A stretch of DNA of 64,000 nucleotides from Candidatus Aenigmatarchaeota archaeon (GTDB lineage: Archaea > Aenigmatarchaeota > Aenigmatarchaeia > QMZP01 > QMZT01), in contig JAPLVC010000003.1 in assembly GCA_026397315.1 (NCBI GenBank), positions 1-64,000 on the forward strand, in the 5' to 3' direction. The notes under the pieces are model-generated. The model was not told the DNA's origin. It saw only the letters and a program-made list of their open reading frames with translations, and did no database searches. Both the position numbers and the translations under genes were made by a program. Below are positions 27,194 through 37,739 of the stretch, piece after piece. Numbering within the stretch: position 1 is the first letter of the stretch; every line of letters begins with the position of its first letter.

Positions 27194-28486
27194 TTACCAG
27201 CAGATGCCCTCGAACTTCGAGACTTTCGTGCGGTCGAGGATGCGCCTGCCCTCCAGGATGACCTTGCTTTTCATTTTCGAGAAATCCGCATCGGTGAGCT
27301 TCTTGAACTCGTCCCACTCGGTCACGACTATGCAAGCGTCGCTGTTCTCCAGCGCTTCGCGTGCGCTCTTCATGTAGTCGACGGAAGGGTGTATCTTCCT
27401 CATATGCTCCATCGCCTTCGGATCGTACGCCTTGACTTTCGCGCCCTTCTGGAGAAGCCTCTCTATTATGTATATAGAAGACGCCTCGCGGATGTCGTCG
27501 GAGTCGGGCTTGAACGCGAGTCCGAGCAGGCAGATGGTCTTGCCTTTGAGGTTCGGGATTTTCTTCTCGAGCTGCTCGACTATCATGACTTTCTGCCTGT
27601 CGTTGAGACGATGAACTTCTTCGAGCAGCTTCGGCTCGTAACTAAGCTCCCTCGCCTTCCATATCAGCGCTTCCACGTCTTTGGGGAAGCACGATCCGCC
27701 ATATCCGACGCCCGCTTTGAGAAAATGCGGGGAGATGCGATGGTCCATGCCAACGCCTTTCATCACTTCGTTGACGTCGATGCCTAGTTTCTTGCAAATG
27801 TTGCCCATCTCGTTCGTGTAGGAAATCTTCGTCGCGAGGAATGCGTTGCTCGCGTACTTTATCATCTCCGCCGTCTTCAGGTCCGTCCTGAGGATCGGCG
27901 CCATGAAATTGGAATATAATTTCTCTATGACGTTGCCCGCCCTTTTGTCGGATTCTCCTATGACTATCCTGTCAGGCTTCAGAAAGTCGTCCATAGCGCG
28001 GCCCTCGCGCAGGAACTCGGGGTTCATGCACAGGCCGAAATCCTTTCCGGTTTTCTTGCCCGACGCCTTTTCGATGTTGCGCAGGACTACGCCGTCCGTC
28101 GTGCCGGGAACGACGGTAGACTTGACAACTATGACATGGTATTCTTTTTTGTTTTTCAGAACTTCTCCTATCTGTCTCGCTACACTCTCGATGAAGCTCA
28201 GGTCTATGGAGCCATCCTCGCTTGAAGGCGTTCCCACAGAAATGAAGCTGACCTCGGTTTCCGCTATCGCGCCTTTCACGTCCGTCGTCGCCTTGAGCTT
28301 CCCTTTCTTTAGCGCGTCCTTGAGGTGGCCATCGAGGTGCGGCTCGAACATCGGCGAGACGCCGCTGTTTATGGTCTCGACTTTCTTCTGGTCTATGTCG
28401 ACGCAGATGACGTCGTTGCCCTTGACCGCGAAGCCCACTCCTGTCGAAAGCCCGACATAGCCCGTGCCCATTATGGAGATTTTCAT
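27194..28486 (-). CDS. UDP-glucose/GDP-mannose dehydrogenase family enzyme
   Basis: 430 residues from the ATG at 28486. Rossmann nucleotide-binding MKISIMGTGYVGLSTGVGFA at the start, FISVGTPSS, the catalytic GGSCFPKDVEALI with the active-site Cys, and the C-terminal LGLAFKPDSDDIREASS. The family oxidises a UDP- or GDP-hexose twice to the uronic acid; the exact sugar cannot be told from sequence here, although UDP-glucose 6-dehydrogenase is most likely. The sugar nucleotidyltransferase fusion at 30913 may supply its substrate. Confidence 0.9.
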   Translation of the reverse strand: MKISIMGTGYVGLSTGVGFAVKGNDVICVDIDQKKVETINSGVSPMFEPHLDGHLKDALKKGKLKATTDVKGAIAETEVSFISVGTPSSEDGSIDLSFIESVARQIGEVLKNKKEYHVIVVKSTVVPGTTDGVVLRNIEKASGKKTGKDFGLCMNPEFLREGRAMDDFLKPDRIVIGESDKRAGNVIEKLYSNFMAPILRTDLKTAEMIKYASNAFLATKISYTNEMGNICKKLGIDVNEVMKGVGMDHRISPHFLKAGVGYGGSCFPKDVEALIWKARELSYEPKLLEEVHRLNDRQKVMIVEQLEKKIPNLKGKTICLLGLAFKPDSDDIREASSIYIIERLLQKGAKVKAYDPKAMEHMRKIHPSVDYMKSAREALENSDACIVVTEWDEFKKLTDADFSKMKSKVILEGRRILDRTKVSKFEGICW

Positions 28487-28549
28487 AGGAAACAAATTGT
28501 TTTGCTTAAATTTATGCTTTTGCCCATCGCGAGCCTTTTGGTGAATTGG

Positions 28550-28821: not shown

Positions 28822-29646
28822 TCAATCACCGAAAATTTTTTGGTACTCGGGCACGACATCCTCCGAGAACTTCACTATCCCCTCGAACGTCTTCGGGTGT
28901 TTTATCATTTCCTCGAGCACGTCGAAAGGTATGGTAGCTATGTGCGCGCCTGCCAAGGCGACCTCTCGGACCTGCCTGGCGTTGCGCAGCGACGCCGCAA
29001 TGACTTCAGTTTTCATGCCGTATCTTTCAAGTATTTCCATAGTCCTCTTCACCAGTTCGACGCCGCTCGCTATACCCTTGTCGTCCACGAGTTGCCCGTC
29101 CTTGTGTTTCCCTTCCGCCGGGAAATAGTCTCCCTTGCCGAAGCTCTCGCCGAGCTTCGTTCTTAGATAATCGTCAATCCTGCCGGCGAACGGGCTTACG
29201 TACGCCGCTCCGGCTTTCGCCGCGAGCAGCGCCTGCTCCGGCGTCATTACAAGCGTGGCGTTGACGGGGATTTTCCTGCGGCTGAGATCCTTTATCGCTT
29301 TCAGTCCCTCGTAATGCTCCTCGCCCTCCTGGCGTGACGTGCTCACAGGAACCTTTATCACGACGTTGCCCATCAGGCCATTGAACTTGCCGTAAAGCAT
29401 CACGCCTTCCTTGACCATGTCCTCCGCCTTGAGGCTGACAACTTCAAGGCTGACAGGACTGTCCCTGCCAGCGACTTTGCAGATGTCTGAAATGTAATTA
29501 GCCATGTCGACTTTCTTGCCGCCGCTTTTCAGCTTGTCGACGGCTTTTTTGATCAGCGACGGGTTCGTAGTCACGCCGTCGCACATGCCGTATTCCTTCG
29601 CTTTGTTTATCTCGTCGATTTCCGCTGAATCCACAAAAATTTTCAT
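28822..29646 (-). CDS. tal: Transaldolase (TalC/FsaA-like)
   Basis: 274 residues, an alpha/beta barrel. Signatures: MKIFVDSAEIDEINKA, GVTTNPSLIKKA, VVIKVPVS with the Schiff-base Lys, NATLVMTPEQALLAAKAGAAYVSPFAGRIDD and AASLRNARQV. It belongs to the short transaldolase/F6P aldolase group but is longer than FsaA by about 50 residues. GGTGAT precedes the ATG by 3 bases. Together with rpe (next gene) and the divergent rpiB it covers part of the non-oxidative pentose phosphate pathway. Confidence 0.9.
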   Translation of the reverse strand: MKIFVDSAEIDEINKAKEYGMCDGVTTNPSLIKKAVDKLKSGGKKVDMANYISDICKVAGRDSPVSLEVVSLKAEDMVKEGVMLYGKFNGLMGNVVIKVPVSTSRQEGEEHYEGLKAIKDLSRRKIPVNATLVMTPEQALLAAKAGAAYVSPFAGRIDDYLRTKLGESFGKGDYFPAEGKHKDGQLVDDKGIASGVELVKRTMEILERYGMKTEVIAASLRNARQVREVALAGAHIATIPFDVLEEMIKHPKTFEGIVKFSEDVVPEYQKIFGD

Positions 29647-29666
29647 AATATCACCATTATTTTATT

Positions 29667-30323
29667 TCAAGCCGACGCGTCCGCTTTCTCCCTTATGGTT
29701 CTCAGCATCGCAGCAGGATCCTGGCTGTAGAATATGGCAGAGCCCGCCACAAGCACGTCCGCCCCGGCGCCAGCAACGGCCGCGCAGTTGTCCTTGTTTA
29801 TGCCGCCGTCGACTTCTACTTCGAAGCTCAGGTTTTTCTGCAAGGCGATTTCCTTAAGCTTCGTCACTTTAGACAGCGCATGCGGCATGAACTTCTGGCC
29901 GCCGAAACCCGGCTCGACCGTCATCACGAGGACGACGTCCGCCATATGTAAAACATGCTCTATTTCAGAAACGTCAGTTCCCGGTTTTATCGAAACGCCC
30001 GCCTTGCACCCGAGGCCCTTTATCTGCTCCAGAACAGCGCCCAGGTCCTTGCATGCCTCTGCGTGGACGACGATTATGTCCGCGCCTGCTTCAGCGAATG
30101 CAGCCACGTGCTTTTCCGGATGCTCTATCATGAGGTGGACGTCGAGAACCTGCTGCGTTATCTTGCGCAGAGCCTTCACTACGAGCGGGCCTATGGTTAT
30201 GCTAGGCACGAAGCGGCCGTCCATCACGTCGATGTGAATCCATTCAGCTCCCTCCACTTTTTTCAGTTCGCTCTGCAGGCAGGCGAAATTGGCCGAAAGT
30301 ATCGAAGGCGAAATCTTGACCAT
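29667..30323 (-). CDS. rpe: Ribulose-phosphate 3-epimerase
   Basis: 218 residues, TIM barrel. Signatures: KISPSILSANFACL, EWIHIDVMDGRFVPSITIG with metal-binding His and Asp, VHLMIEHPEKHV, MTVEPGFGGQKF and EVDGGINKDN. It interconverts ribulose 5-phosphate and xylulose 5-phosphate. It lies upstream of tal on the same strand with a 20-base gap, and is divergent from rpiB with about 57 bases between start codons. Confidence 0.95.
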   Translation of the reverse strand: MVKISPSILSANFACLQSELKKVEGAEWIHIDVMDGRFVPSITIGPLVVKALRKITQQVLDVHLMIEHPEKHVAAFAEAGADIIVVHAEACKDLGAVLEQIKGLGCKAGVSIKPGTDVSEIEHVLHMADVVLVMTVEPGFGGQKFMPHALSKVTKLKEIALQKNLSFEVEVDGGINKDNCAAVAGAGADVLVAGSAIFYSQDPAAMLRTIREKADASA

Positions 30324-30380: not shown

Positions 30381-30836
30381 ATGAAAGTTGCGATAGGTTC
30401 CGACCATGCGGGCTACGAACTGAAAGAGAAGCTCAAGGAGTTCCTGCAGGCGAACGGCTATCACTTCGAGGACTTCGGGACGAATTCTACGGACGCTAGC
30501 GATTATCCGGAATACGCCAAAAAGGTCTCCGAGGCCGTGATTAGCGGCTTCGAGTTCGGGATTCTGATTTGTGGCAGCGGCATTGGCATGTCCATCGCGG
30601 CGAACAAGTTCCCCGGGATTCGCGCGGCTTTCTGCATGAACCACGACCTTGCTAAGGCGAGCCGCGAGCACAACAATGCGAACGTCCTCACATTAGGCGC
30701 GAAGTTCACGACCGACTTGGAAGCGAAGAAGATAGTGAAAGCGTTCCTTGAGACGAAGTTCAGCAACGAGGAACGCCACATAAAGCGGCTCAAGAAGCTC
30801 GCCGAGATCGAGATGATTTTCCAGGCGAGGAAGTAA
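30381..30836 (+). CDS. rpiB: Ribose-5-phosphate isomerase B
   Basis: 151 residues. MKVAIGSDHAGYELKEKLK at the start, DYPEYAKKV, GILICGSGIGMSIAANKFPGIRAA with the catalytic Cys, and CMNHDLAKASREHNNANVLTLGA. RpiB is the usual form in bacteria; many archaea use RpiA, so its presence beside rpe suggests acquisition as a set. The start is the ATG at 30381; the frame continues upstream only by chance over rpe. Confidence 0.93.
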   Translation: MKVAIGSDHAGYELKEKLKEFLQANGYHFEDFGTNSTDASDYPEYAKKVSEAVISGFEFGILICGSGIGMSIAANKFPGIRAAFCMNHDLAKASREHNNANVLTLGAKFTTDLEAKKIVKAFLETKFSNEERHIKRLKKLAEIEMIFQARK

Positions 30837-30912
30837 TACTTTGCAATACGCGCTTCCACGACGTAGGAAATCTTTTTATATTGTATGAGCAAATAATACT
30901 CGGTATGATGTT

Positions 30913-31755
30913 ATGAAGGAACGCATAACGCTCACTATAGACAGGAAAATTCTGGAGAAGATAGACACGATGGTCGACGGGCTAGACGTGCGCAACCGCT
31001 CGCACGCGATAGAGCTCGTGCTTTCCAAGTTTCTGAGCATGCGGGAACTGAAGACGGCGCTCATCCTCTGCGGCGGAGAGGGAACGAGACTTCGCCCCAT
31101 CACATACGAGACGCCCAAGGCGCTGGTCCCCGTTCAGGGCAAGCCGCTCATAGAGCACATGTTCGACCTGCTCAAGAAATACAACATAAACGACGTCATA
31201 ATCTCGGTAGGCTACCTGAAGGAGAAAATAATAGCAGAGAAGAACAGCTGGTCCAAGCTGGGCCTTAACATATCATATGTCGAAGAGAGCGCGCCACTAG
31301 GGACTGGCGGACCACTAAGGTTTGCCAAGGACAGGCTTACCAAGACTTTCATAGTCTCCAACGGCGACGAGCTGAAGGACATAAACATAGTCGACATGTA
31401 CGAGGCACACAAGAAGAACCGCGCGCTCGTCACCATCGCGCTCACGACGGTGGATGATCCCAGCCAGTATGGCGTCGCGAGGCTCGACGGCTCCAGGATA
31501 ATAGAGTTCGTCGAGAAGCCGAAGAAAGGCAAGTCGCCTTCGAATCTCATAAATGCGGGCTTCTACATAATGGAGCCCGAAGTCGTCGAGATGATCCCCA
31601 AAGGTCCGTGCTCGCTGGAGAAGGAAATATTTCCCAAGCTCGCGAAGATGGGGCGGCTCTACGGGTTCCCGTTCAGCGGCCAGTGGTTCGACACCGGCAC
31701 GATGGAACGCTACGAGCACGCGCTCAAGGCGTGGAAGGGCGTCAGGACGGAATAA
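30913..31755 (+). CDS. RHH DNA-binding domain fused to sugar-1-phosphate nucleotidyltransferase
   Basis: 280 residues in two domains. Residues 1-45 (KERITLTIDRKILEKIDTM, then RNRSHAIELVLSKFL) form a CopG-like ribbon-helix-helix. Residues 48-275 are a nucleotidyltransferase of the GlmU/RmlA/GMPP class: LILCGGEGTRLRPITYETPK signature loop, GKPLIEHM, SAPLGTGGPL, VSNGDEL, EKPKKGKSPSNLINAGFYIM and FPFSGQWFDTGT. It lacks the left-handed helix domain of GlmU. The first domain normally binds DNA, so the protein may link sugar-nucleotide supply to gene control. The fusion is read through in one frame with no sign of a frameshift. Confidence 0.85.
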   Translation: MKERITLTIDRKILEKIDTMVDGLDVRNRSHAIELVLSKFLSMRELKTALILCGGEGTRLRPITYETPKALVPVQGKPLIEHMFDLLKKYNINDVIISVGYLKEKIIAEKNSWSKLGLNISYVEESAPLGTGGPLRFAKDRLTKTFIVSNGDELKDINIVDMYEAHKKNRALVTIALTTVDDPSQYGVARLDGSRIIEFVEKPKKGKSPSNLINAGFYIMEPEVVEMIPKGPCSLEKEIFPKLAKMGRLYGFPFSGQWFDTGTMERYEHALKAWKGVRTE

Positions 31756-31851: not shown

Positions 31852-32373
31852 ATGGGAGAGCACATGGACAATTTCAGGAAATTAGTGAAGCAGGAGGAAT
31901 TAAATAATCGACAAAAACAGACGTTTTCATACGTTAAACAATTATATTTTATTGAACCAGGTTTCGACGTTGATAATTATGAGCATCTTATGGGATGCCC
32001 AGAAAAAGATCTAGGTGATAATGAGTATGCTCAGGATATACGGAAGATAAATGAGGAAGTTGTCAGAACGTTTGAGAGTTTGGGCAAGGAAGGAATTACC
32101 ATTTTGGGAATGGCTTTGATTAATCCAGATGAATGTACACTCAGACAAAATGCCGCAATTATTTTGGGTGAACTTGGAAAAAGATACCATCCACATACAG
32201 AGAATTATAAATTTATCAGAGGCCTTCTAACGTCAAAGGCTATCGGTACCGGCGCTTCCATCGAACGCGATGGTTATGACTTCGGGTCCAATGTGGAACC
32301 TGAGGGTTTTGTAACCGCGAGAATATTGCACGCCCTTAATGGGATGGGCGTTGTTGAGGATTCTAATAAGTGA
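31852..32373 (+). CDS. Unknown helical protein
   Basis: 173 residues, soluble, with AT-rich codon use relative to neighbours. The helices in the second half (LRQNAAIILGELGKRYHPH...FVTARILHALNGMGVVED) resemble HEAT-like pairs but are too few to name. GGTGA lies 4 bases ahead of the ATG, with a TATA box (GATTTATAAAG) at about 31808. Single gene. Confidence 0.5.
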   Translation: MGEHMDNFRKLVKQEELNNRQKQTFSYVKQLYFIEPGFDVDNYEHLMGCPEKDLGDNEYAQDIRKINEEVVRTFESLGKEGITILGMALINPDECTLRQNAAIILGELGKRYHPHTENYKFIRGLLTSKAIGTGASIERDGYDFGSNVEPEGFVTARILHALNGMGVVEDSNK

Positions 32374-34410: not shown

Positions 34411-35115
34411 ATGAAGTTCCCGAAGCCGGGCAGGAACATTTTTCACAGGGGTTCGAAGGAAGCCGCGCCGCCTGCCGCGAAGGATGGCAAGTCAGCCGAA
34501 GACAAAAAGTTCGTGGAATCCATAAACGAGATATACAGGCAGTTCAAGGAGGAGAAGCTGCGCAAGGAGCGCTTTGCCATTCTCGGCGTTGGCAACGACC
34601 TGAAAGGCGACGACGGCGTTGGCCCATACGTCGCTGAAAAACTAAAGAAACTAATAGGCAAAGACGAATATTTCCTTTTCATAAAGACGGCGATGCCCGA
34701 GGATCACGTCCGCGAACTGAAAGCCTTCACGCCCACGCTTCTCATAATCGTCGACGCTGCGGATTTCGGGAAGAGGCCCGGAAGCCTTAAAGTGATAAGG
34801 GACTACGAGATAAGCGATACGGCGCTCTCAACGCACATAACGCCGCTCAGCATTTTCCTGCGCCTTTACAACGCCGACCAGCCGGTGAAAAACCCGGTCA
34901 CCATAATCGGCATACAGAAGAAAAGCAACGAGTTCGGCCAGCCCCTCGGCAGCGAGGCCAGAGTCGCTGGTGACAAGGTCGCGGAAATAATAAACGACCT
35001 TTATCGCAAGAAGCTGCTCGGCACCATGCTGGAGAAGGAATTCGAGCGTCAATCCAGCGCCATCAAGAAGATAGAGAGCGCTTTCTCGGGCGGAAAAAAA
35101 GCCACAGGCAAATAG
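34411..35115 (+). CDS. hycI: [NiFe]-hydrogenase maturation protease
   Basis: 234 residues. The M52-type core begins at about residue 52: FAILGVGNDLKGDDGVGPYVAEKL, then MPEDHVRELKAFTPTLLIIVDAADFG and STHITPLSIFLRL, matching the HycI/HypD-like endopeptidase with nickel-coordinating Glu/Asp and His. A 50-residue polar N-terminal extension precedes it. Such proteases cut off the C-terminal tail of the large subunit once nickel is in place. The large subunit at 36388-37596 ends with a tail after DPCFSCTDR|M, the same Arg-Met bond as in HycE. The convergent gene is the ferredoxin subunit. Confidence 0.88.
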   Translation: MKFPKPGRNIFHRGSKEAAPPAAKDGKSAEDKKFVESINEIYRQFKEEKLRKERFAILGVGNDLKGDDGVGPYVAEKLKKLIGKDEYFLFIKTAMPEDHVRELKAFTPTLLIIVDAADFGKRPGSLKVIRDYEISDTALSTHITPLSIFLRLYNADQPVKNPVTIIGIQKKSNEFGQPLGSEARVAGDKVAEIINDLYRKKLLGTMLEKEFERQSSAIKKIESAFSGGKKATGK

Positions 35116-35121
35116 CGCGGA

Positions 35122-35460
35122 CTATTTTTTATGCGTTTCTTTGAACTTGTCCTTGTCGGGACCGGCGAGTTCGAACTTGTCCGAATTATCGACGGATTTC
35201 GGGTTTGTCGGGCAGACGTCGTGACATTTGCCGCAGAAGATGCATTTTCCGACATCGATGGACCACGTCTTCTGCTCCCTGTTGACGACTATCGCGTTTG
35301 TGGGACAGTTTATGGCGCAGAGCATGCAGAAGATGCACGTTTCCTTTTTCCATTCCACCTTGCCGCGGAATCCGGGCGGCAGCGAAGGCCGCTGTTTCGG
35401 ATAGCGTCTCGTCGCAGGTCTGGAAAAAAGCCTTTGCAACGCTTCCGGTAAGAGATTCAT
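35122..35460 (-). CDS. Ferredoxin-like hydrogenase subunit (2x 4Fe-4S, NuoI/MbhN type)
   Basis: 112 residues. Two classic 4Fe-4S motifs, CIFCMLCAINCP and CIFCGKCHDVCP, as in NuoI, EchF and MbhN. It carries electrons to or from the active-site subunits at the cytoplasmic face of the membrane complex. It is the last of three hydrogenase genes on this strand, beginning 11 bases after the NuoH-like gene, and is convergent with the protease gene. Confidence 0.88.
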   Translation of the reverse strand: MNLLPEALQRLFSRPATRRYPKQRPSLPPGFRGKVEWKKETCIFCMLCAINCPTNAIVVNREQKTWSIDVGKCIFCGKCHDVCPTNPKSVDNSDKFELAGPDKDKFKETHKK

Positions 35461-35471
35461 TTTTCATACAC

Positions 35472-36395
35472 CTACATGACATAAAACCCTAGCAGGACCC
35501 TGGCAAGGTCGATGAGAGCTAACGGCCCTACGACGAACCAGTAAAACCTGAAAGCCTGAGCTATCTGCAACCTGGCGAACACGACGCGGAATACGATCAG
35601 TATCGCTAGTAACGCGAGCGAATAAACGGCGAAAGTAAGGAGGCTGTTGGCCCCGAGGTAAAGGACCGCTCCCAGAGATATTAACACCCAGAATCCCGCC
35701 GCTTTAGCCAGCTCGAACAGCGCCAGCCTCGGGCCGCTGTATTCCGTCGTGGGGCCTGCGACTATTTCCTGCTCCGCGTCCGGTATGTGGAACGGAGGAA
35801 GCGAAAGCTTGCCCAGCACGCCCATCAGGAAAGCGAAAAATGCGAACGGCAGCTGCAGGGTGAAAAGGGGGACGATACGAAAGCCCGTTAATACGCCAAT
35901 CGTCACCAGTGAGATGACGAAGGGAAATTCATATGCGAACAGCTGCGTGAGCTCCCGTATGCTGCCTAAAGAAGCGAAGGGGTTGCCCGCGGCGAAGCCT
36001 GCGACCGCGAAAAATACGGAAGACATTATCAGGAAGTACAGTACGACGAAAAGGCTGCCCTGGAAAAATATGGGTTCGACGCTGAACATGCCGGGAAGAC
36101 CAGCGATGGGAATGAATAACGCTACAGTCATCAGCGACGCGAACGAGACCACCGGGCACAGCGTAGCTAGCGCGCCTGTTGCGTCGCGGGTTGTTATGTT
36201 CTCCTTCGACAGCAATTTGAAGAAGTCGAAGAATGGCTGCCACAAAGGCGGCCCGATGCGATGCTGCATGCGTGCGCTGACCTTGCGCACTATGCCCATG
36301 TAAAGGAAACCGATTATGAAAGCGGCCAGGAATCCTGGAAAGACGAGCATATTGAAAACGTTCTGCGCCAGCTGGGGCGTCAGCGCTTCAAACAT
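35472..36395 (-). CDS. NuoH/MbhM-like membrane subunit of group 4 hydrogenase
   Basis: 307 residues with eight or so transmembrane helices. The family segments RMQHRIGPPLWQPFFDFFKLL, FASLGSIRELTQLFAYEFPF and DAEQEIVAGPTTEYSGPRLALFELA are all present, including the conserved charged residues at the proton channel entrance and quinone-like cavity. I start it at ATG 36395 because GGAGGT lies 7 bases ahead; the frame runs to 36425. It overlaps the large subunit gene by 8 bases. Confidence 0.9.
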   Translation of the reverse strand: MFEALTPQLAQNVFNMLVFPGFLAAFIIGFLYMGIVRKVSARMQHRIGPPLWQPFFDFFKLLSKENITTRDATGALATLCPVVSFASLMTVALFIPIAGLPGMFSVEPIFFQGSLFVVLYFLIMSSVFFAVAGFAAGNPFASLGSIRELTQLFAYEFPFVISLVTIGVLTGFRIVPLFTLQLPFAFFAFLMGVLGKLSLPPFHIPDAEQEIVAGPTTEYSGPRLALFELAKAAGFWVLISLGAVLYLGANSLLTFAVYSLALLAILIVFRVVFARLQIAQAFRFYWFVVGPLALIDLARVLLGFYVM

Positions 36396-37596
36396 GCGGG
36401 TGACCTCCGTGGCCATGCGCTTCATGCGAGCCGCCGTCTCTCATGTGCAGGATTTCGTGCTTGGTTATTATTTTTTCCTTGCACGATTTCGTGTCGATGA
36501 TGGTCATCCTGTCCGTGCACGAAAAACAAGGATCGAGTGAAGCGACTATAACAGGCACGTCGGATATCGTATGGCCTTTCAGTATTTCCTCCAGGACGTG
36601 GAAGGTCTGGTATGTCGGCGTGCGTATGCGCACCCTCGTCGGTTTTACGCCTCCGGACTGCATGTAATAGAACAGCTCACCGCGCGGCGCCTCGACCCGC
36701 GAAACTGTCTCGAGTCCTTCTTTTACGCTTACGGCTGACGGGAGCTTGAGCGAGATATCGCCCTTTATTTCAGTGAGAGTCGTCAGCGACAGCCGGATCA
36801 TGCGTATCGATTCGAGACATTCCTTCGCGCGGACTATGCAGCGCTCCTGCGCGTCGCCGCCCTCGCCGGTTACGGCCCTGAACTTCAGGTCCTTGTAGGC
36901 GAGATACCCTGTCTCCCGCACGTCGTAATCGATGCCTGAAGCACGAAGATTCGGGCCGACCGGGTTCAGCTCCTTCGCTTTCATTCGAGACAGATGCCCT
37001 ACATTCCTGGTCCTGATCTTCATCAGAGAATCATTCCTGAAAACGCTCAGATAATGCTTCAGCCGCTCTTCCAGCGTGTCGAGGTTTTTGGCCATCTTGC
37101 CGTAGTTTTCCTGACCGATGTCCCTTCTCACTCCGCCTATCACGTTCATCGCGAAGTGCACGCGGTTGCCTGTGAGCGATTCCTGCATGTCCATGACGAG
37201 CTCGCGGTCGCGGAAGATATAATGGAAGAGAGTATCGAGACCAACTTCCCAGGCGACCAGGCCCAGCGCGAGCATGTGCGAATGCATTCTTTCCAGCTCG
37301 CTCACCAGCGTGCGTATGTGCTTTGCGCGGTCGGGAATCTCGACTCCCAGCATCTGCTCGATGCCCTGACAGTAGCATGATGTATGGTAGTGCCCGCATA
37401 TGCCGCAGACGCGCTCGCTCAGGAAGACGCCTTTCGCCCAGGGCCTGTTTTCGAACGACTTCTCGATGCCCTTGTGATTGTAGCCGAGAACGAGCTCCGC
37501 CCCTTTTATCGTTTCCCCTTCGACGCGCAGCTTTATGTGGGCCGGCTCGACCAGCGCGGGATGCTGCGGTCCGAACGGCAGGACAAAATCATGCAT
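36388..37596 (-). CDS. Group 4 [NiFe]-hydrogenase large (catalytic) subunit
   Basis: 402 residues from the ATG at 37596 (MHDFVLPFGPQHPAL); a TATA box (ACTTATAACAG) lies about 27 bases ahead, so it is likely leaderless. The two nickel-binding pairs are intact: ERVCGICGHYHTSCY (Cys64, Cys67) and DPCFSCTDR (Cys357, Cys360). This separates it from NuoD of complex I, where they are lost. After DPCFSCTDR comes Met and a 39-residue tail ending in a His-rich stretch (SHEAHGHGGHPHV), which the adjacent HycI-like protease would remove. It is the first gene of the cluster; a small subunit (NuoB-like) and antiporter-like subunits are not present in the window. Confidence 0.92.
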   Translation of the reverse strand: MHDFVLPFGPQHPALVEPAHIKLRVEGETIKGAELVLGYNHKGIEKSFENRPWAKGVFLSERVCGICGHYHTSCYCQGIEQMLGVEIPDRAKHIRTLVSELERMHSHMLALGLVAWEVGLDTLFHYIFRDRELVMDMQESLTGNRVHFAMNVIGGVRRDIGQENYGKMAKNLDTLEERLKHYLSVFRNDSLMKIRTRNVGHLSRMKAKELNPVGPNLRASGIDYDVRETGYLAYKDLKFRAVTGEGGDAQERCIVRAKECLESIRMIRLSLTTLTEIKGDISLKLPSAVSVKEGLETVSRVEAPRGELFYYMQSGGVKPTRVRIRTPTYQTFHVLEEILKGHTISDVPVIVASLDPCFSCTDRMTIIDTKSCKEKIITKHEILHMRDGGSHEAHGHGGHPHV

Positions 37597-37739
37597 ATAA
37601 TTATTTTGCTTACCTGTTATAAGTAACTTTCCTGTCAAAAATTACTCTTCGACGAAATTAAATAAAATAAGAAATTATGCAGTCATTAAAAAACAGCAAA
37701 CCAAAGGATGAACGGCCCTCTGAAATCCATTTTCCTTTA

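Follow-up and report, generated by a model that had tools for sequence, protein, structure and literature searches.

NadR, the nicotinamide mononucleotide adenylyltransferase-repressor, combines a nucleotidyltransferase with a DNA-binding domain and represses its own pathway. PutA combines an N-terminal ribbon-helix-helix (RHH) domain with a metabolic enzyme and is the autogenous repressor of its regulon (PMC5293562). CopG, a plasmid repressor of 45 residues, contacts bases through Arg4 and Thr6 and the DNA backbone through Thr8, and its dimers are lined up along the operator (PMC8251345), and the operator of Escherichia coli NikR is GTATGA-N16-TCATAC (PMC7055735). In archaea, glycolysis and gluconeogenesis are controlled by TrmB/TrmBL1, and a TrmBL1 site represses when it lies below the TATA box and activates when it lies above (PMC4706686). 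This report is focused on a gene at positions 30913–31755 (forward strand) of a 64,000-nucleotide stretch of Candidatus Aenigmatarchaeota archaeon (assembly GCA_026397315.1, contig JAPLVC010000003.1, positions 1–64,000; hereafter the window), in which an RHH domain is fused to a sugar-1-phosphate nucleotidyltransferase domain. Judged from sequence, the fusion is quite probably an autoregulated RHH transcription factor with a ligand-sensing nucleotidyltransferase domain, acting on sugar and carbon genes.

The open reading frame (ORF) encodes 280 amino acids from an ATG start, and the fusion is confirmed at the stated position. Residues 1–42 (30913–31038, forward strand) form an RHH domain of the CopG/NikR type, recognized from Pfam RHH_1, from alignments with NikR and CopG, and from the conserved R29, S30, and E34; it comprises the strand MKERITLTI and two helices at approximately residues 11–21 and 29–40, which are seen in the AlphaFold2 (AF2) model. 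When the first 48 residues were scanned alone, residues 4–41 matched RHH_1 with E = 3e-5 and 24.2 bits against a gathering score of 20.5, and in the full-length scan the score was 20.0 bits, slightly below that threshold; the first-pass annotation, which had regarded residues 1–45 as a good RHH domain, is borne out by the former scan. Among solved structures, NikR (E = 0.002) and CopG have the RHH domains closest in sequence; the E. coli NikR strand RVTIT is similar to that of the fusions, and R4, T6, and T8 of the fusion strand occupy the base- and backbone-contact positions of CopG. Residues 49–271 (31057–31725, forward strand) form the nucleotidyltransferase domain (Pfam NTP_transferase, PF00483, 2.9e-41), which is also identified by matches in the PDB and by a residue table. 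The signature loop GGxGTRLxPxTxxxPK is complete, and the active-site Asp, Lys, and Asp are also present (G54-G55-x-G57-T58-R59 … P68-K69, D152, E201-K202, and D260), in agreement with the complete catalytic domain described in the first-pass annotation. Of the enzymes with solved structures, GDP-mannose pyrophosphorylases come closest in sequence (E = 9e-45) and also in fold. Among the NCBIfam equivalogs listed for this protein, none reaches its cutoff, and the substrate of the nucleotidyltransferase domain therefore cannot be named.

The fusion resembles PutA and NadR in concept and TrmB/TrmBL1 in role, and is a member of neither PutA nor NadR. NadR differs in its helix-turn-helix, in an unrelated nucleotidyltransferase fold, and in serving the nicotinamide adenine dinucleotide pathway, and the sugar-binding domain of TrmB/TrmBL1 is not known to derive from an enzyme of the nucleotidyltransferase kind. 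GDP-mannose pyrophosphorylase beta (GMPPB/VTC1), which the catalytic domain matches best in both sequence and fold, is without a DNA-binding domain and has a C-terminal left-handed helix domain that is not in the window protein. Furthermore, TrmB/TrmBL1 is unrelated, having another fold and the motif TATCAC-N5-GTGATA. Despite its RHH domain, PutA carries an unrelated flavoenzyme domain and no nucleotidyltransferase, leaves DNA for the membrane, and is bacterial as described in PMC5293562; its PRODH/P5CDH catalytic domains were not found in the window protein by the Pfam scan. NikR is the closest solved RHH sequence and shares the half-site GTATGA (PMC7055735), although its half-sites form an inverted repeat with a 16-bp spacer, whereas those of the fusion are direct repeats at 10 bp; the C-terminal nickel-binding domain of NikR is not in the window protein, where residues 49–271 are NTP_transferase. 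CopG shares the R4/T6/T8 strand but has no effector domain. No published RHH-nucleotidyltransferase regulator was found in the open literature, subscription papers and unlabelled database entries being outside the search, and the papers found on DPANN metabolism describe no such regulator. In public annotation these fusions are presumably listed as plain nucleotidyltransferases.

The same fusion was sought in other genomes, as the first-pass annotation had advised, and was found across Aenigmatarchaeota and in a second archaeal group. With a search profile built from 19 fusions, full-length fusions were detected throughout Aenigmatarchaeota (156 genomes), and matches with E ≤ 1e-60, most of which cover the RHH part, occur in 129 of the 279 genomes of the phylum around a Woesearchaeota genome (hereafter the Woesearchaeota side). 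The fusion is thus old and widespread, and its recurrence in many genomes rules out a chance fusion or an assembly artefact. The N-terminus is kept from the same Met in relatives that are 60–79% identical, and residues 1–45 are under purifying selection, with nonsynonymous (pN) values of 0.17–0.22 vs. synonymous (pS) values of 0.61–0.74 in relatives 69–79% identical. An internal start near Met43, which the first-pass annotation had named as a possible objection, is rejected because of this selection and the recurrence of the fusion, and is contradicted by the upstream conservation; such a start would lose the conserved RHH domain and leave the gene detached from both the TATA box and the operator. 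Many genomes of the Woesearchaeota side encode two RHH-nucleotidyltransferase paralogues, one matching strongly (E ~1e-120) and one weakly (E ~1e-68), which probably reflects an ancient divergence between a lineage that stayed intact and one that decayed. One record titled Aminicenantes bacterium (L035) carries an archaeal-type fusion and is probably a binning error or misbinned contig.

The fusion gene is preceded by a predicted operator, GTATGA-N4-ATAATA-N4-GTATGA, with three half-sites at 10-bp steps (30883–30908, forward strand; pattern scan, 0 mismatches). It reads GTATGAgcaaATAATActcgGTATGA and lies 4 bp before the start codon, directly below a TATA-box-like element, TTTATATT (30875–30882, forward strand), which was recognized from the sequence and a pattern scan; a sigma-70 promoter scan found none, that model being the wrong promoter type for an archaeon. 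Shuffled sequences matched the triple-site pattern 0.14 times on average even with three mismatches allowed. In the window's genome there are exactly two perfect triple sites, namely that in the fusion's own promoter and one at C1:94725–94750, which is 22 bp before the start of pgk (with gap next after pgk), reads TCATACgataTATTACatcaTCATAC, and is also below a TATA-like stretch. The pgk promoter of another genus (G001) reads TCATACaataTATTACgttaTCATAC, with the same half-sites and different spacers, and that of a third genus (G005) reads TATTACgaagTATTACttcaTATTAC, a variant triplet.

The motif is enriched across the family. In the 120 bp before fusions the top enriched 6-mer is GTATGA (27/57 vs. 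50/755 other genes, p = 4e-15), and same-strand pairs at exactly 10 bp precede 16 of 57 fusions vs. 2 of 651 other genes. A second group, the Woesearchaeota side, is separate from the discovery set apart from a few members already in the first set; here the half-site is found before 23 of 27 fusions vs. 1 of 68 other genes (p = 6e-17), and the 10-bp pair before 10 of 27 vs. 0 of 68. Of the exact pairs detected by genome-wide searches, 21 of 50 in Aenigmatarchaeota and 26 of 66 on the Woesearchaeota side are located no more than 300 bp upstream of a fusion. The reversed-pattern control for the genome-wide search was not clean, since the extended repeat, e.g., AGTATGAAAAAGTATGA, contains the reversed pattern, and gene-based controls were used instead.

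The two domains of the fusion have not been kept equally. The DNA-contact residues of the strand and the RS turn persist: counted over 59 aligned fusions, position 4 is R or K in 58 and position 8 is T or S in 57, while R29 is found in 57, S30 in all, and E34 in 56. By contrast, the catalytic loop GxGTR…K is intact in 17 of these proteins, is missing its arginine in another 11, and is lost in the remaining 31, such that it has decayed in 42 of 59 while the RHH domain stays intact; in one fusion (L126) the loop is deleted entirely. Asp at position 152 is invariant. In a tree computed without the loop columns, the intact or lost state of the loop changes at least four times, and the window protein falls within a supported clade of 13 members, all of which have an intact loop and keep G57, R59, and K69. 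Retention of the RHH domain together with loss of catalysis fits the RHH domain as the selected function, with a nucleotidyltransferase able to become a sensor, and would not be expected if the RHH domain merely held the enzyme together. Near the fusion genes at L027, L089, L096, L120, and L126, translations revealed a HAD-phosphatase-like domain fused to a nucleotidyltransferase (~417–697 amino acids), which may be the active enzyme in cases where the RHH fusion is no longer catalytic.

Genes that carry the predicted operator point to carbon metabolism. Exact pairs that do not belong to fusions precede, in Aenigmatarchaeota, the genes for fructose-1,6-bisphosphate (FBP) aldolase/phosphatase, pgk, phosphoenolpyruvate synthase, rpiB (in L217, a genome other than the window's), and a heptose kinase-isomerase. 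On the Woesearchaeota side such pairs lie before the genes for enolase, type II GAPDH, and FBP aldolase/phosphatase and before glpX, which is there divergent from the fusion. Seven central carbon genes occur among ~34 non-fusion sites, for which a rough binomial estimate that assumes ~8 central carbon genes per 1100 gives 5e-9. Furthermore, fusions often have a divergent gene within 270 bp upstream (35/54 vs. 204/740 other genes, p = 5e-8), as do only 3 of 28 stand-alone nucleotidyltransferases, and these divergent genes mostly encode uridine diphosphate (UDP)-sugar dehydrogenases, GHMP kinases, and NAD-epimerases. This layout is regulator-like. The operator pairs at genes for heptose-7-phosphate kinase/isomerase and DUF2090 aldolase-like proteins at L204–L221 (G115, G121, G122, and G124) suggest that the regulon of family f6 includes a heptose pathway.

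The predicted regulon most likely comprises glycolysis/gluconeogenesis and sugar-nucleotide genes, with the catalytically intact nucleotidyltransferase as the sensor in the window. The first-pass annotation had proposed a sugar-nucleotide enzyme that also binds DNA and regulates envelope genes in response to sugar phosphate levels. A DNA-binding regulator of sugar genes is strongly supported on comparative grounds by the operator, the divergent layout, and the catalytic decay with the RHH domain kept, but the envelope targets fit less well, since the only other perfect operator of its own genome is at pgk-gap and it is mainly in relatives that envelope or nucleoside diphosphate (NDP)-sugar genes are predicted to be controlled. 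Sensing of a sugar phosphate is plausible, a ligand of the nucleotidyltransferase domain being the natural candidate for the signal. In the proposed mechanism, the RHH strand (R4, T6, and T8) of each dimer would read a GTATGA-like half-site, and several dimers would bind side by side at 10-bp steps. At both its own gene and the pgk-gap operon, the fusion would thereby occupy the triple half-site just below the TATA box and act as a repressor, repression being predicted because a TrmBL1 site in that position represses. A sugar phosphate, nucleoside triphosphate, or NDP-sugar in the nucleotidyltransferase domain would alter the affinity for DNA, and such sensing would link triose-phosphate and pentose-phosphate metabolism with the availability of activated sugars. 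Because its active site is intact, the window protein, whose RHH domain has a predicted operator in front of its own gene, may in addition be catalytically active, i.e., a trigger enzyme; in most relatives catalysis would be lost and the sensor alone would remain. Sequence statistics support the fusion, its conservation, the operator motif and its placement, the operator-bearing genes, and the catalytic decay, and we infer DNA binding, repression, the ligand, and catalysis. We lean slightly towards a broader proposal, that the family is a global regulator of DPANN carbon metabolism in which the window's clade is a working trigger enzyme and sister clades are pseudoenzyme sensors, with the passage from enzyme to transcription factor visible across the family.

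Other explanations differ from this proposal in what each domain does. The protein could be an ordinary biosynthetic nucleotidyltransferase whose RHH domain does no more than dimerise or tetramerise it, as the first-pass annotation had also allowed; RHH domains do dimerise, PutA included (PMC5293562), and the window's clade retains intact catalytic motifs, but the conserved DNA-contact residues of the strand are unneeded for dimerising, 42 of 59 members keep the RHH domain without catalysis, and the operator is repeated at 10 bp in fusion promoters, all of which makes this explanation very improbable. Only a little more credible is a role of the GTATGA repeats as sites for another factor, e.g., a NikR-like or other RHH protein, through which the fusion gene and pgk would be controlled, the fusion itself not binding there. 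In favour of this, NikR uses the half-site GTATGA (PMC7055735) and the window has hydrogenase-like genes at 35–37.6 kb; against it, the repeats accompany the fusion gene across many genomes from both archaeal groups and occur at sugar rather than nickel genes. The fusion is, moreover, the only RHH_1 protein over the cutoff in the window's genome (1.05 Mb, 91% complete; RHH_1 was the RHH family searched), and a NikR operator was considered unlikely on that ground. More serious, though still unlikely, is a regulator whose nucleotidyltransferase is non-catalytic even in the window and serves as a mere receptor for an NDP-sugar or sugar phosphate. Sister clades have repeatedly lost the catalytic arginine or the whole loop with Asp152 kept throughout, and the window's genome encodes two other nucleotidyltransferases; retention of G57, R59, and K69 in all 13 members of the window's clade is hard to explain without catalysis or a strict ligand geometry.

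Several observations also weigh against the fusion as a regulator acting through these operators. The sequences are related by kinship, so that the p-values overstate the number of independent events, the test in the second group being the best guard. Strand residue 6 appears linked to the site type in raw counts (14/21 vs. 2/35), but the covariation is not significant on the tree, where it rests on four independent pairs, and members with Ser-6 often have AT-rich variants only, without GTATGA. About half of the non-fusion pair hits fall within genes or beside unrelated ones, and these are probably chance. In several members of the Woesearchaeota side the site is upstream of the TATA box of the fusion, which may indicate activation there, such that the sign of regulation may differ. 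Finally, the AF2 monomer (mean predicted local distance difference test score of 70) is weak in the RHH part and does not resolve the strand, which needs a dimer, so that the model contributes little. If the regulator is confirmed in its proposed role, the RHH class would gain a new enzyme-derived sensor domain, and several steps from a metabolic enzyme to a transcription factor would be on display; the family offers a named protein, a DNA motif, and a list of target genes in dozens of genomes.

Directly upstream of the fusion gene and co-oriented with it is rpiB, encoding ribose-5-phosphate isomerase B (30381–30836, forward strand; Pfam LacAB_rpiB, 2.2e-56), and divergent from rpiB is a ribulose-phosphate 3-epimerase gene (29667–30323, reverse strand; Pfam, 1.4e-76), followed by genes of the transaldolase family (28822–29646, reverse strand; Pfam TAL_FSA, 1.2e-57) and of the UDP-glucose/GDP-mannose dehydrogenase family (27194–28495, reverse strand; Pfam match). 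The last gene is 2.4 kb upstream of the fusion, with the three others between them, whereas in two genomes of the window's own family (G002 and G005) a UDP-sugar dehydrogenase from that same cluster is the immediate divergent neighbour of the fusion, with gaps of 71 and 86 bp. Directly 3′ of the fusion, after an AT-rich region, is an ORF of 173 amino acids (31852–32373, forward strand) that has no Pfam match at E ≤ 1e-8. Farther downstream, translations suggest a hydrogenase-maturation-protease-like ORF (34411–35115, forward strand) and a hydrogenase-like or complex-I-like cluster (~35122–37638, reverse strand) with ferredoxin-like, NuoH-like, and large-subunit-like ORFs.
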